DNA from: Corynebacterium pacaense
Lineage (GTDB): Bacteria > Actinomycetota > Actinomycetes > Mycobacteriales > Mycobacteriaceae
Direction: 5' to 3'
DNA: 64,000 nt
NCBI RefSeq assembly: GCF_900169525.1
Contig: NZ_LT821239.1
Span: 1,200,708-1,264,707 of the forward strand
In this document: piece by piece, positions 18,569 through 35,845 of the stretch
Numbering within the stretch: the first letter of the stretch is position 1
Layout: every line of letters starts with the position of its first letter
Made by a program: the position numbers and the translations under genes
The notes under the pieces: generated by a model
Database searches by the model: none
What the model saw: the letters and a program-made list of their open reading frames with translations, nothing else
Told to the model about the DNA's origin: nothing

Positions 18569-20045
18569 CAATGCATAACAACCGACACGATCAAACCGGT
18601 CCTACCGTAAAGGTCCGGCCGGAGACCGCCATCACGGCGGGGGACAACGACTACCACAAGGGGCTGAGTACCCGGCACGTGAACATGATCGCCATCGGTG
18701 GTGCCATCGGCACCGGCCTGTTCATGGGTGCCGGAGGGCGTCTGGAGCAGGCGGGACCGGGCATCGTGTTCAGCTACGCCGCGTGCGGTCTGCTGGCGTT
18801 CCTCATTCTCCGGGCACTGGGGGAGCTGGTGATGCACCGGCCCTCCTCGGGATCCTTCGTCTCCTACGCCCGTGAGTTCTATGGAGAAAAGCGGCCTTCG
18901 CCACCGGATGGCTCTACTGGATGAACTGGGCGATGACATCCATCGTCGATATCACCGCCGCCGCCCTGTACATGAACTTCTTCGGCCGCTACGTCCCCTG
19001 GATAGCGGCGGTCCCGCAGTGGGGCTGGGCACTGGCGGCCCTGACCCTGGTTCTGGGGATGAATCTGATCTCCGTGAAGGTCTTCGGGGAAATGGAGTTC
19101 TGGTTCGCGCTGATCAAGGTGGTGGCGCTGTCGGTGTTCCTCGTGATCGGGTGCTACTTTGTCATCTTCGGCACACCCATCGAGGGCCATGATGTCGGGT
19201 GGTCGCTGATCACGGACAACGGCGGACTGCTTCCCGGCGGAATCCTTCCCGTCATCGTTCTGATGCAGGGTGTGGTGTTCGCCTACGCCTCGATCGAGTT
19301 GATCGGTACGGCCGCGGGGGAGGTGGAGAACCCCGAGAAGATCATGCCGAGGGCGATCAACACGGTGATTGTCCGGATCGCGGTGTTCTACGTCGGTTCG
19401 CTCATCCTCCTGTCGCTGCTGCTTCCCTACACCGAGTACCGGGCGGGGGAGAGTCCCTTCGTGACATTCTTCGCCGCCATCGGCGTTCCGGGCATGGATG
19501 TGGTGATGAACCTGGTTGTGCTCTCAGCGGCACTGTCCTCCCTCAACGCGGGGTTGTACTCCACGGGAAGGATTCTGCGTTCGATGGCGCTCAACGGCTC
19601 GGCTCCCCGCTTCGCCGGCCGGATGAGCACCTCCGGAGTCCCCTACGGGGGCATCGTGATCACCGCGGTGGTCGCCGCGTTCGGGGTCGGTCTCAACGCG
19701 ATCGTGCCGTCGCAGGCCTTCGAGATCGTGCTCAACTTCGCCGCCCTGGGCATCATCGCGTCCTGGGCGATGATCGTGCTCTGCCACATCGCCCTTGTCC
19801 GCCACGCCAGGGCAGGTAGGCTGCAACGACCGGCGTTCAGGATGCCGCTGGCGCCCTACTCCAGCTGGTTCGTGCTGATCAGCCTGGTGTTCATCGTCAT
19901 CATGATGGCCTTTGACAAGCCGGTGGGAACTTGGACCGTGGCCGGTCTGGGTGTGATCATCCCGCTGCTGGTCGGAGGGTGGTACGCCTGCCGCGGAAGG
20001 ATCACCGCCATCGCCGCCGAGCGCGGGGCGGAGCTCAACCCCTAG
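18565..20045 (+). pseudogene. Amino-acid permease (AAT/APC family, AnsP-like), frameshifted
   Basis: Two adjoining frames together encode one complete 12-helix amino-acid permease of about 493 residues. Residues 1-109 ([39 protein letters not shown]) run in the first frame up to YGEK near 18888. The continuation [16 protein letters not shown] lies in the frame one base back, and the first frame soon ends at a TGA. The loss of a single base at or near AAAAG (18887-18891) explains this. The helix content and [24 protein letters not shown] motifs match the asparagine/aromatic permease group; the substrate is not certain. It is translationally coupled to the GntR gene. Sequencing error, true inactivation and programmed -1 slippage remain possible. 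Confidence 0.85.
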
Positions 20046-20473
20046 GAAAGGAGCTGACAGTCGGGGCAGAGGCCGAAAACCTCCGCCTCGTGGCTGCTCA
20101 CCAGAAAACCGTGGGAGGAGGCCACCTCCCGGGCCCAGGATTCCACCGGGCCCCCGTCGATCTCCACCGTTTTCCCACACCGCGTGCACACGAGATGGTG
20201 GTGGTGATGGCCGGCGACGCACTGCCGGTAGAGCGTTTCGCCCCCGGCTACGTTGAGCACGTCCACGGCGCCGATCTCGGTAAGGGACTGGAGGGTGCGG
20301 TACACGGTGGTCAATCCTACCGCGAGGCTCCTGGAATCGAGCTCGGAATGAATCTCCTTCGCCGAGGCGAAATGATCGAGCTCGTTGAGTACATCGACAA
20401 CCGCCTTGCGCTGCCGGGTGCTGCGCACACCGAGCTTGGGGGCGCTCGCCTGCCCGACTCTGTTGGGGCCCAC
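20042..20473 (-). CDS. zur: Zinc uptake regulator Zur (FurB)
   Basis: A 143-residue Fur-family repressor. Its winged-helix domain shows STRQRKAVVDVLNEL and VGLTTVYRTLQSL, and the metal sites are in AGHHHHHLVCTRCG and VFGLCPDC, giving the two CxxC structural zinc motifs plus the regulatory His cluster. In related corynebacteria and mycobacteria Zur represses zinc-uptake genes when zinc is replete. GTG 20471-20473 has AGGAGG at 20481-20486. It is downstream of, and on the same strand as, the ArsR gene (67-bp gap), the known zinc-responsive pair arrangement. Its 3' end overlaps the permease 3' end by 4 bp. Confidence 0.92.
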   Translation of the reverse strand: MGPNRVGQASAPKLGVRSTRQRKAVVDVLNELDHFASAKEIHSELDSRSLAVGLTTVYRTLQSLTEIGAVDVLNVAGGETLYRQCVAGHHHHHLVCTRCGKTVEIDGGPVESWAREVASSHGFLVSSHEAEVFGLCPDCQLLS

Positions 20474-20540: not shown

Positions 20541-20930
20541 CTACTGCTGTTCCTGGCTGTAGGAGCTGGCCTCGTGGGCCGCTCTGATCACGTCGATGAC
20601 GGGCGGTGCACTGAGGCAATAGGTCATCTGTCTGCCGTTGCGGGTCGCCGAAACTATCCCGGAATCCTTGAGCACCTTGAGATGCTGGCTGATCAGGGGC
20701 TGGGAGTTTCCGATGACCGAGACCAGCTCGTGGACGTAGTGGGGGCGTTCGTACAGCGAGAGAATGATGTGGATGCGGATGGGGGAATCGAGCAATCGGA
20801 TCAGGTTCGCGGTTGCGACCAGCGCGGCCCGTGATTCGATCACCGAGGAACCGGTGGGAACGGGATCGGTCGCTTGAAGATCGCTCACCTGATCCAGCGG
20901 ACTCATGAACTCTCGCGGGGTGTCAAGCAT
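20541..20930 (-). CDS. znr: ArsR/SmtB-family metalloregulator (Znr-like)
   Basis: A 129-residue ArsR-type winged-helix repressor. The helix-turn-helix is HELVSVIGNSQPLISQHLKVLKDSG and the wing is SATRNGRQMTYCL; RPHYVHELV fits the dimer core. Its position directly upstream of zur and next to glyS is the same as the cg2500-zur arrangement of C. glutamicum and Rv2358-furB in M. tuberculosis, where the ArsR protein represses the pair and is released by zinc. The metal specificity is inferred from this synteny. The start near 20930 is an ATG or GTG preceded by AGAAAGGGG-like sequence. Confidence 0.88.
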   Translation of the reverse strand: MLDTPREFMSPLDQVSDLQATDPVPTGSSVIESRAALVATANLIRLLDSPIRIHIILSLYERPHYVHELVSVIGNSQPLISQHLKVLKDSGIVSATRNGRQMTYCLSAPPVIDVIRAAHEASSYSQEQQ

Positions 20931-33098: not shown

Positions 33099-33350
33099 CT
33101 ATCGGGGCAGCACCAGCTCCACGCCGAGGTCATCGAAGACCTCCTCCAGGCGTTCGGTGTTCCGGGCGTCCACCGTCCAGGATCCGTGCACATCGACACG
33201 GCCAACATGGGATTCTCTCAGTAGATCAGCCAGGCCGTCGAGGTTTGTGGGTGCGGGTCTGTCCGGACCCCACACCGCACGTCCCAGTAGGGTGTAAAAA
33301 TCCCCGATCCTGTTGAAGTTGGCGTACAGAACGGTGTTTGTGGTGTCCAT
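33099..33350 (-). CDS. Barstar-like ribonuclease inhibitor
   Basis: An 83-residue acidic protein with the barstar layout: a short strand, a helix containing FYTLLGRAVWGPDRPAPTNL, then LDGLADLLRE and a final strand-helix with RNTERLEEVFDDLGVELVL. The acidic helix that plugs the RNase active site in barstar corresponds to the NLDGLADLL region. Its start is 12 bases after the stop of the RNase reading frame, in the order RNase then inhibitor. It should protect the cytoplasm from the RNase before secretion. The family call rests on pattern recognition over a short protein. Confidence 0.75.
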   Translation of the reverse strand: MDTTNTVLYANFNRIGDFYTLLGRAVWGPDRPAPTNLDGLADLLRESHVGRVDVHGSWTVDARNTERLEEVFDDLGVELVLPR

Positions 33351-33362
33351 TGTGTCCGTGGC

Positions 33363-33906
33363 TCAGCCTTCCGCGTCGGTGATCGTGCAGAATGTTTCGT
33401 AATGGTCACCGGTGAAATACCAGACATCCGGGTCGGTCTGCGTCCCCCCGCCGGTGACGATACGCAATGGGCCACGGTGGCCCAATCCCGGGGTGGGCAC
33501 CGTGTACTCGCGGTAGTAGTTCCGGGATTCCTCGGGAAGCGCACCCTCGTAGTTGCCGAAACGCACCCCGTCATTGTCGGGATAGCCGAAGGGGCCTCCC
33601 GCGAGGATATCATCGACGACGAGCTCCGTCTGGTCCGGAAGCGTCTCCAGTGCGCAGGAGGGCACGTTTCCGTTGGGCCCTGATTCCTGCGCGGTGGTGC
33701 GGGAGGCGGGGGATTGATTAGGCGTGGTCGGGGTGGTCGGGGAGGCTGGAGGCGGGGGATTGATTAGGCGTGGTCGGGGTGGTCGGGGAGGCTGTGGTCG
33801 GGGTGGCCCGACCCTGTTCGTCCTCGTAACCCACACCCAGCCATGCGGCGACGAGCATGAGTGCCGCCCCGGCCGCCCCTGCGACCACTTTCTTACCGTT
33901 GACCAT
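33363..33906 (-). pseudogene. Secreted guanyl-specific ribonuclease (RNase Sa/N1 type), frame broken by a 46-bp duplication
   Basis: Translation from ATG 33906 gives a signal-peptide or anchor sequence (MVNGKKVVAGAAGAALMLVA) and a Thr/Pro linker. The frame then ends at TAA 33718 after 62 codons because a perfect 46-bp unit is present twice (33702-33793). The RNase domain continues in another frame: CALETLPDQTELVVDDILA, AGGPFGYPDNDGVRFGNYEG, YYREYTVPTPG, GPLRIVTGG and FTGDHYETFC. These carry the Glu, Arg and His expected for RNase Sa-family catalysis. With one repeat copy removed, the two parts join into an intact 165-residue preprotein. The barstar-like gene follows. dnaG diverges 43 bp away. 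Confidence 0.85.
33702..33793. repeat. Perfect 46-bp direct tandem duplication
   Basis: Copies at 33702-33747 and 33748-33793 are identical over all 46 bases, each beginning GGAGGCGGGGGATTGATTAG. They encode the Thr/Pro/Ser linker of the RNase. Since 46 is not a multiple of three, the second copy shifts the frame. Within the unit, shorter GGTCGGGG repeats would favour slipped-strand events. Confidence 0.95.
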
Positions 33907-33949
33907 GGTCTTGATCCTTCCATACGGTGATGAGGATAGAGTGTTGGGC

Positions 33950-35845
33950 ATGGCGAAGGGACGGATACCGGAGAGTGACATTCAGGCAATCCGCGAACGG
34001 ACCCCGATCGAGGAGATCGTGGGGGACTATGTACAGCTCAAGTCGGCCGGAGCGGACTCCCTGAAAGGGCTCAGCCCCTTCAAGGACGAGAAGACCCCGT
34101 CCTTCCACGTCCGCCCGAACCGTGGATACTACCACTGCTTTTCCACCGGCAAGGGTGGGGATGTGTTCTCATTCCTGATGGAGATGGAACATATCACCTT
34201 TCCCGAGGCCGTCGAAGTGTGCGCGGAGAAGATCGGCTACCAGATCAACTACCAGGGTGGGGGACCTGGCCGCAGGGAGGAACCGGGGACCAGACAGCGT
34301 CTGGTGGCCGCTAACAGGGCAGCCCACCAGTTCTACCGCGAGCAGCTGGAGACCGCCGAGGCGGAACCCGCCCGGGATTTCCTGCTCCAGCGCGGGTTCA
34401 GCCAGCAGCACATCTACACTTTCGAATGTGGCTATGCGCCCGCCGGCTGGGACACGCTGACCAAGCATCTGTTGCGGAAGGGTTTTAAGTTCCAGGAGCT
34501 CGAGGCCGCGGGGCTGTCCAAGATGGGCAAGCGCGGGCCGATCGACCAGTTCCACCGGCGCCTGCTATGGCCGATCAAGAATCTTTCCGGGGACGTCATC
34601 GGATTCGGTGCCCGCAAACTCTTCGATGATGACAAAATGGGCAAGTACATGAACACCCGCGACACCCTGCTCTACAACAAGTCCAAGGTGCTCTTCGGTC
34701 TGGACACCGCCAAGCGTGCGATCGCCGTGGGACACCAGGCCGTGGTGGTCGAGGGGTACACCGATGTCATGGCGATGCACGCCGCGGGGGTCACTACAGC
34801 GGTCGCGGCGTGCGGCACAGCCTTCGGTGACGAGCACCTGCAGATGCTGCGCCGGCTGATGCTGGATGACAACTACTTCCGCGGGGAGCTGATCTACACC
34901 TTCGACGGCGACGAGGCCGGGCAGAAGGCCGCCATGCGGGCCTTCGAGGGCGATCAGAAGTTCACCGGGCAGTCCTTCGTCGCCGTCGCCCCCGACGGCA
35001 TGGATCCCTGCGATCTGCGCCTGGAGAAGGGCGATGCCGCCCTGCGGGATCTGATCGCCGGCCGCGTGCCCATGTTCGAGTTCGTCCTCCAGTCCATGAT
35101 CGCCGAGTACCAGCTCGACACAGTGGAGGGACGCCTGTCCGCTTTACGACGCACGGTGCCCGTGGTCGCGGACATTCAGGACAGGACACTGCAGTCGGAA
35201 TACGCCCGCCTGCTGGCGGGCTGGATCGGCTGGGCCGATCCTGCGGAGGTGCTCCAGCAGGTTCGCGAGGAGGCGCGGCGCCCCAGGCAGCAGCGCAGGC
35301 AGAACAGGGCAACGCGAATCACCGAGACCGTCGAGGACCAGTCCAGGCGACCGTCGATGACCATGCCCAACCCCCGCAACCCCGCACTCTGGCAGGAACG
35401 GGAATCACTCAAGCTCGCTCTGCAGTATCCCGAGCTCGCCGGAAGCTACTTCGACGGCCTGGCCACCGACAGTTTCACCAACCCCGCCTACCGGATGGTC
35501 CGCGATGCGATCACAGCGGCGGGTGGTTGTGACATGGCGGCCTCCGGGGTGGACTGGCTGCCGAGCGTTTCCGAGCAGATGAACGACATCCTCGGCACCT
35601 CCCTGGTATCCGAGCTGGCGATGGAACCCATCGCCATCGAACCAGAGGACCTGGAATCCTATACCGATGCGGTGCTCTCGCGCCTGCAGGAGGCCCGGGT
35701 GGGCAATCAGATCGCGGTACTGAAAAGTCAGCTCCAGCGGATGCGCCCCTCCGATGATGAGCAGGCCTACAACTCCCTGTTCTCCGACCTGGTGGCCATG
35801 GAGCAGGCGCGCCGGGAACTGCTCTCCCGGGCGTTCAGGGGATAG
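33950..35845 (+). CDS. dnaG: DNA primase
   Basis: A 631-residue primase that makes RNA primers at the fork. ATG 33950 (MAKGRIPESDIQAIRERTPI) is chosen, with the GTG at 33941 as the alternative. The Toprim core is intact (VVVEGYTDVMAMHAAG; IYTFDGDEAGQKAA) and RRLLWPIKN and FGARKLFDD are conserved. The C-terminal helicase-interaction domain follows. The N-terminal CHC2 zinc ribbon is degenerate: residues aligned with the four ligands are S42, K45, C63 and T66 (LSPFKDEKTPSF; YYHCFSTGKGG) rather than C, H, C, C. The gene diverges from the broken RNase gene. Confidence 0.95.
   Translation: MAKGRIPESDIQAIRERTPIEEIVGDYVQLKSAGADSLKGLSPFKDEKTPSFHVRPNRGYYHCFSTGKGGDVFSFLMEMEHITFPEAVEVCAEKIGYQINYQGGGPGRREEPGTRQRLVAANRAAHQFYREQLETAEAEPARDFLLQRGFSQQHIYTFECGYAPAGWDTLTKHLLRKGFKFQELEAAGLSKMGKRGPIDQFHRRLLWPIKNLSGDVIGFGARKLFDDDKMGKYMNTRDTLLYNKSKVLFGLDTAKRAIAVGHQAVVVEGYTDVMAMHAAGVTTAVAACGTAFGDEHLQMLRRLMLDDNYFRGELIYTFDGDEAGQKAAMRAFEGDQKFTGQSFVAVAPDGMDPCDLRLEKGDAALRDLIAGRVPMFEFVLQSMIAEYQLDTVEGRLSALRRTVPVVADIQDRTLQSEYARLLAGWIGWADPAEVLQQVREEARRPRQQRRQNRATRITETVEDQSRRPSMTMPNPRNPALWQERESLKLALQYPELAGSYFDGLATDSFTNPAYRMVRDAITAAGGCDMAASGVDWLPSVSEQMNDILGTSLVSELAMEPIAIEPEDLESYTDAVLSRLQEARVGNQIAVLKSQLQRMRPSDDEQAYNSLFSDLVAMEQARRELLSRAFRG

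Follow-up and report, generated by a model that had tools for sequence, protein, structure and literature searches.

DnaG primase of Corynebacterium pacaense and its genus lacks three of the four zinc ligands of the N-terminal ribbon

The DnaG primase encoded in a 64,000-nucleotide stretch of the Corynebacterium pacaense genome (the window) raises the question of how its N-terminal ribbon is held together. S42, K45, C63, and T66 of this protein align with the Cys/His/Cys/Cys zinc ligands of the solved zinc domains 1d0q and 2au3 (phmmer), and only C63 is itself a ligand residue. A sequence-only reading of the window had made the same assignment, and the translation and the codons (S42 AGC, K45 AAG, C63 TGC, T66 ACC) agree with it. 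The coordinates of the gene, its domains, and its neighbors are collected in Table 1.

Table 1. Features of the window, with positions counted from its first nucleotide.
Feature	Position	Strand	Evidence or remark
dnaG, DNA primase, 631 aa, start MAKGRIP	33950..35845	+	translation, domain profiles, single genome match
N-terminal zinc-ribbon-fold domain, residues 7-102, zinc ligands lost	33968..34255	+	PF01807, 99.1 bits (cut-off 24.9)
Codon 42, AGC, Ser at zinc Cys 1	34073..34075	+	Ser 108/108 in clade; Cys 41/41 in family relatives
Codon 45, AAG, Lys at zinc His	34082..34084	+	Lys 104, Thr 4 of 108; His 41/41 in relatives
Codon 63, TGC, Cys, the one ligand kept	34136..34138	+	Cys 107, Asp 1 of 108
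Codon 65, TCC, Ser at invariant Gly	34142..34144	+	Ser 101, Ala 7 of 108; Gly 41/41 in relatives
Codon 66, ACC, Thr at zinc Cys 4	34145..34147	+	Thr 103, Ser 5 of 108; Cys 41/41 in relatives
Toprim motif EGYTD, residues 268-272, catalytic domain, intact	34751..34765	+	sequence and alignment
DnaB-binding domain, residues 483-610	35396..35779	+	PF08278, 99.4 bits
zur (FUR family), context only	20042..20473	-	FUR family match; shared synteny
ArsR-family regulator (znr in PMC2823685), context only	20541..20930	-	arsR family match; shared synteny
Barnase-like ribonuclease	33363-33989	-	PF00545; between glmS and dnaG
Small acidic protein	33099-33350	-	beside the barnase-like ribonuclease; no Pfam match

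We found that the protein (MAKGRIP...GLSPFKDEKTPSF...GYYHCFSTGKGGDV) is without doubt DnaG. It scores 362.1 bits against the TIGR01391 dnaG equivalog (cut-off, 283.6), and its Pfam matches are DNAG_N, the zinc-ribbon profile, DnaB_bind, and DnaG_DnaB_bind, with PF10410 and PF08278 making up the C-terminal DnaB-binding part. The Toprim motifs EGYTD and DGDEAG (residues 319 to 324) align with those of solved primases. A further upstream ATG at 33857 merely lengthens the frame. The sequence-only reading had argued that no frameshift was involved, and the intact frame with all expected domains bears this out; the profile scores and the recurrence of the same change in 79 genomes led us to reject a sequencing error as well. 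The zinc-ribbon profile and the whole protein each gave one match in the C. pacaense genome. We therefore found no second dnaG and rejected the idea of a further, zinc-bearing copy. We infer that the sole dnaG found in this genome encodes a working replicative primase. Compared with the CHC2 zinc ribbon (PF01807), the domain has the profile score and the predicted fold of the family and does not have its Cys-His-Cys-Cys ligands. Judged by those ligands, the Ser-Lys-Cys-Thr domain is a homologous ribbon fold that would have no zinc site, and bound zinc is probably absent.

Whether the change is genus-wide was a question that the sequence-only reading had put to an alignment of corynebacterial DnaG. 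We ran the zinc-ribbon profile on 151 Corynebacterium genomes, of which 149 match (79 read as sequence and 70 by score only), and found that the same three ligands are absent in all 79 genomes read, far more often than chance would give. Among the scores listed, Corynebacterium lies at 92 to 108 bits; other family members lie mostly at 111 to 127 bits among the matches listed, and G171, whose partial match scores 101.8 bits, is CHC2 over the matched stretch. Named zinc-less records include C. amycolatum, C. xerosis, C. lactis, C. halotolerans, C. variabile, and C. vitaeruminis; C. glutamicum was counted by profile match as a control genome. Two sister genera, g70 and g71, give equally low scores. 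Three of the 23 g70 genomes have no match, and of the 20 read, 19 are zinc-less and 1 (G607) is CHC2. Both g71 genomes are zinc-less, and one of them (G425) has an additional CHC2 match. The CHC2 rows from G607 (L149) and G425 (L145) look like foreign contigs in draft assemblies because they sit on long branches far from their own genus in the tree described below; both stayed in the counts as CHCC. By size and position, the two sister genera may correspond to Dietzia and Lawsonella. The 40 genomes read from ten other genera of the family are CHC2.

The two Corynebacterium genomes without a profile match were G002, which has just the C-terminal part of dnaG at a contig start, and G131 (82% complete), in which no match to the whole DnaG protein was found. 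A whole-protein search of 16 genomes (15 without a zinc-ribbon match and C. pacaense itself) left ten without any match (G131, G576, G160, G173, G293, G667, G722, G828, G844, and G866), G160 giving a weak sub-threshold match that reads SPFH. Beyond the family, we found no clear independent loss in Actinomycetota among the low-scoring genomes read in the order and phylum surveys, in which most genomes were judged by score only. In one survey set, all 18 low-scoring genomes outside the sister genus are CHC2. Three cysteines and a histidine are present in 17 of the 19 phylum-survey loci, f32 having the wider spacing CPYPDH; of the other two, L188 is a non-homologous frame and L189 lacks everything before FGC.

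Several side observations came from these surveys. G059 carries two dnaG copies on one contig (C1), L010 and L062, about 29 kb apart, both zinc-less and resembling different species' versions. In G405, a second CHC2-like match (L168, 43.9 bits) lies outside dnaG in a 345-aa frame. In eight other genomes of the order (G176, G195, G228, G314, G239, G179, G207, and G194; loci L125-L132 with L135-L142), an insert beginning CLAGET at the equivalent of C63 splits the zinc-ribbon match in two. The L127 insert has the far junction LTGN/CFGC and a LAGLIDADG_3 match, as expected of an intein. Split matches in the f32 genomes G776, G839, G860, and G880 may be inserts of the same kind.

Among 194 distinct DnaG sequences, 108 are zinc-less (SKCT in 99, STCT in 4, SKCS in 4, and SKDS in 1) and 85 are fully CHC2; the remaining row, a spirochaete (L213), is misaligned, its own sequence reading CPFHGNGNERTPSC...YCFAC. 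No intermediate ligand state was seen in this set. We built a maximum-likelihood tree on residues 112 to 430, with the zinc domain excluded; its 123 rows comprised one in three of the SKCT rows, a few selected ones, and all the rest. One branch (99/95) parts the zinc-less rows from the zinc-bearing rows. In this tree, g70 is sister to g71 plus Corynebacterium, and g5 and g6 are the nearest CHC2 relatives. On this topology, the zinc ligands were lost once, at the common ancestor of Corynebacterium, g70, and g71. Both AGY and TCN codons encode Ser42 within the clade; the residue has thus been retained while its codons turned over.

The sequence-only reading had linked the ligand loss to the nearby zur and ArsR genes and to a relaxed dependence on zinc. 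A related explanation is that the ligands were lost because the habitat is poor in zinc, on the model of the zinc-free ribosomal protein paralogues under Zur control; several actinobacterial Zur regulons include such paralogues, according to PMC2823685. We found the same zur-arsR-glyS-dgt-dnaG block in two relatives with a four-ligand DnaG: G157 and G231 (L222), where the gene order is identical and the block fits into about 9 kb. The same paper describes a similar location of znr-zur in C. glutamicum and M. tuberculosis, and its main text has 0 occurrences of dnaG or primase. Because the synteny is common to relatives that retain all four ligands, the proximity of zur and ArsR is uninformative, and the proposed link is not supported. 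A general relaxation of zinc dependence also fits poorly, since the two other sites tested in the same genome, RecR (CRIC...CRIC) and LigA (CPDC...CPNARSC), keep four-cysteine ribbons. These ribbons, the shared neighborhood, and the single dnaG copy found in the genome, with no second one to switch to, make zinc limitation an unlikely cause. Between glmS and dnaG, the small acidic protein that follows the barnase-like ribonuclease could, by its look, be a barstar-like inhibitor of that enzyme.

Another possibility is that C63 still takes part in binding a metal together with H62, H53, H81, or C91, or that a metal sits at the interface of two subunits. Cys63 is kept in 107 of the 108 zinc-less sequences, and H53 (107/108) and H62 (105/108) are nearly as constant. 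However, the two histidines are about equally conserved in the four-ligand relatives (38/41 and 41/41) and hence are not replacements, and C91 and H81 occur in just 53 and 72 of the 108 sequences. We looked for other Cys or His residues taking over and found no new fixed Cys or His at any position when the 108 clade sequences were compared with the 41 relatives. The statement of the sequence-only reading that C63 remains holds for C. pacaense and not for the whole clade: G097 has Asp there (L106, HDFSSGEGG), so its DnaG is without any of the four ligands, and Asp is also found at position 63 in 44 of the 71 zinc-less phage rows described below. Because Cys63 is so widely kept, we allow a small probability to a weak or shared site, such as one formed by two DnaG molecules or one that includes His62/His53, and regard a variant metal site in general as improbable. 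The sequence-only reading had proposed that loss of zinc could alter template recognition. Published work holds the zinc ribbon to be essential for primase function, and one residue beside the ribbon of the C. difficile primase sets its trinucleotide preference (PMC5204125). His62, retained in 105 of the 108 zinc-less sequences, aligns to that residue, and we infer that it would be its counterpart.

The ribbon might instead be dispensable and decaying under relaxed constraint, so that the catalytic and helicase-binding domains would carry the whole function. Three ligands were lost together, and position 68, which is Glu in all 41 relatives, is now Lys, Glu, Gln, or Asn. However, the ribbon domain is present in the dnaG of each of the 79 corynebacterial genomes read, and Ser42 is invariant in the clade. 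We compared zinc-domain with catalytic-domain distances, leaving out pairs with a catalytic distance under 0.1. The ratio was 0.67 within Corynebacterium (96 sequences, 4477 pairs) and 0.69 in the whole zinc-less set (108 sequences, 5670 pairs), against 0.92 in the 41 CHC2 family relatives (755 pairs). By bin, the zinc-domain distance in zinc-less sequences versus relatives was 0.11 versus 0.12, 0.17 to 0.18 versus 0.25, and 0.21 to 0.22 versus 0.24; at short distances, the zinc domain is merely equally constrained (0.113 versus 0.120). Constraint on the zinc-less domain is thus roughly equal to, or stronger than, that in relatives, and decay is very hard to reconcile with this result.

Differences fixed between the clade and its relatives (85% or more on both sides) number 12 over 602 positions, and 6 of them (42, 45, 65, 66, 77, and 85) lie inside the 102-residue zinc domain (hypergeometric p 0.008). 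Four of these six are the three ligands and the Gly-to-Ser change at position 65, which accompanies the ligand changes. Met77 was considered as a compensating change and rejected, since 1d0q, with its zinc intact, also has Met there.

The N-terminal domain is predicted to keep the ribbon fold. AlphaFold2 models were built from alignments of 24 sequences for the full protein and 23 for the domain alone. In the former, residues 11 to 100 form a block with pLDDT 81 to 93 (whole-protein mean, 75), and in the latter the mean pLDDT was 89. The ribbon strands, predicted with good confidence at 38-40, 52-55, 60-63, and 68-70, also argue against decay. The predicted domain matched 1d0q_A with a Z score of 16.3 (1.8 A, 100 of 102 residues aligned, 46% identity) and 2au3 with a Z score of 15.2; the next row scored 6.8. 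A model built from a homologous alignment tends toward the fold of its family even where the apo protein would be unfolded, and the prediction speaks for compatibility with the ribbon fold, as distinct from stability without zinc.

Zinc-less primases with nearly the same residues exist in phages, and the domain could in principle have come from one of them by recombination, which is scarcely credible: the domains of the window, g70, and g71 have 66 to 83% identity to four CHC2 relatives and at most 50% to any zinc-less phage domain (70 to 83% and at best 48% for g70 and g71 outside the ligand columns), all 214 matching phage records are under 60% identity, and the corynebacterial rows fall within Actinomycetota in a tree built without the ligand columns. 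From the high identity to the CHCC relatives and the low identity to the phage domains, we conclude that the residues were substituted in place.

A scan of viral contigs with the corynebacterial domain gave 41 loci, three of which read Ser-Thr-Cys-Ser. Zinc-less primases were found in Cellulophaga phage Ingeline_1 (KSPFVAEKTGSF...FKCFSSGKGG), Flavobacterium phage 6H (KSPFTDDKTASL...WKDFSSGKGG), and Flavobacterium phage laban6-1 (KSPFVEEKSPSF...WKDFSSGKGG). From a scan seeded with such zinc-less phage domains, the best 80 of 105 loci were taken; eight loci repeating contigs already present were skipped. The phage, viral-contig, and plasmid rows comprised 71 zinc-less (67 distinct) and 19 CHC2 rows out of 90, counts that are no frequencies since the rows were gathered by zinc-less queries. 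Ser42 and Ser65 are present in all 71 zinc-less rows. Position 63 is Asp in 44 and Cys in 27, and position 66 is Ser in 61, Thr in 7, and Ala in 3. Among the 19 CHC2 rows, Gly stands at position 65 in 12, Ala in 4, Ser in 2, and Val in 1. The motif EG[YFWH]xD is absent from the 350 residues read in 30 of the 71 zinc-less and 13 of the 19 CHC2 rows, which makes it a poor test of completeness, and not all of the zinc-less rows need be complete primases. Chromosomal DnaG of flavobacteria may also be zinc-less of this type.

We built a second tree from 108 rows, omitting the five trait columns and the rows L173 and L355. In this tree, the product of a quick search with several long branches, the trait requires 7 parsimony changes of state, at least 5 of them forced by well-supported branches. 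A single clade for all zinc-less rows was rejected (AU p 0.00043). Separate lineages thus appear to have reached nearly the same residues, including Ser65, which is not a ligand. A Cys-to-Ser change takes one base and is near-isosteric, and the repeated serines at 42 and 66 are therefore weaker evidence of a common solution than Ser65. The viral contigs L365 and L375 carry CHC2-bearing primases nested in a zinc-less phage clade; this nesting would imply either that the four ligands were all regained or that they were lost several times in parallel.

Position 45 is free in the zinc-less rows, where Lys, Thr, Val, Asn, Ser, Gln, Gly, Ala, and Ile are tolerated. Lys occurs there in 12 of the 44 Asp63 rows and in 0 of the 27 Cys63 rows, and 11 of the 12 belong to one clade, so that covariation of Lys45 with Asp63 is suggestive only. 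Lys45 is paired with Cys63 in corynebacteria and with Asp63 in all 12 Lys45 phage rows. Because so many residues are tolerated at position 45, a specific ion pair between Lys45 and Cys/Asp63 is not general.

We consider it quite probable that in this presumably working replicative primase the structural zinc has been replaced by a polar, hydrogen-bonded core, with the ribbon fold and priming retained. According to this model, Cys-His-Cys-Cys became Ser-Lys/Thr-Cys-Thr/Ser in the ancestor of Corynebacterium, g70, and g71, together with Gly65 to Ser. A cluster of S42, S65, and T/S66 with the thiol or carboxylate at 63 would hold the ribbon instead of Zn(II), and the side chain at 45 would fill the former metal cavity. 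The template-contacting face would still be offered to single-stranded DNA, and the domain would work with the catalytic and DnaB-binding domains. Priming would no longer depend on zinc at the ribbon site, which should resist oxidation and chelation, a putative benefit. One observation speaks against a purely polar core: such a core would not require Cys63, yet Cys63 is kept in 107 of 108 sequences. With more reserve, we lean toward a broader reading, in which the zinc of the DnaG ribbon acts as a staple that can be exchanged. Two or more lineages, and several on the quick tree, would have converged roughly on S-P-[FWL]-x...[CD]-[FY]-S-[STA]. A network of two Ser and a Ser or Thr, arranged about a thiol or carboxylate, would then take the place of the metal in an enzyme essential for replication.

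A natural and apparently zinc-free version carried by a genus offers a direct test of the role of the metal in fold, template choice, and redox sensitivity, and the repeated, nearly identical residues could serve as a sequence rule for recognizing zinc-free primases; profile searches still label the zinc-less domain a CHC2 zinc finger. A ribbon of this kind is also relevant to inhibitors that target the zinc domain of primase. In the open-licence literature, represented mostly by listings and the starts of abstracts, we found no description of a zinc-less DnaG, which is weak evidence of absence.

DnaG of the CHC2 family relatives (g2, probably Mycobacterium, and g5) has the same domain order and neighborhood, with 58 to 59% whole-protein identity to two relatives; these have Cys-His-Cys-Cys and Gly65, whereas C. 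pacaense DnaG has Ser-Lys-Cys-Thr and Ser65. The 1d0q zinc domain shares the fold and differs in having all four ligands. The Zur-controlled, zinc-free ribosomal paralogues described in PMC2823685 likewise dispense with the zinc motif of their relatives; they are second copies switched on by lack of zinc, whereas C. pacaense dnaG is the only copy found. The DnaG-type primases of Cellulophaga phage Ingeline_1, of the Flavobacterium phages 6H and laban6-1, and of IMG/VR contigs likewise have Ser65, and of their ligand positions the first holds Ser, the third Cys or Asp, and the fourth Ser, Thr, or Ala. They differ in belonging to separate lineages, in having mostly Asp at the third position, and in a second position occupied by Thr, Asn, Lys, Ser, or Val.
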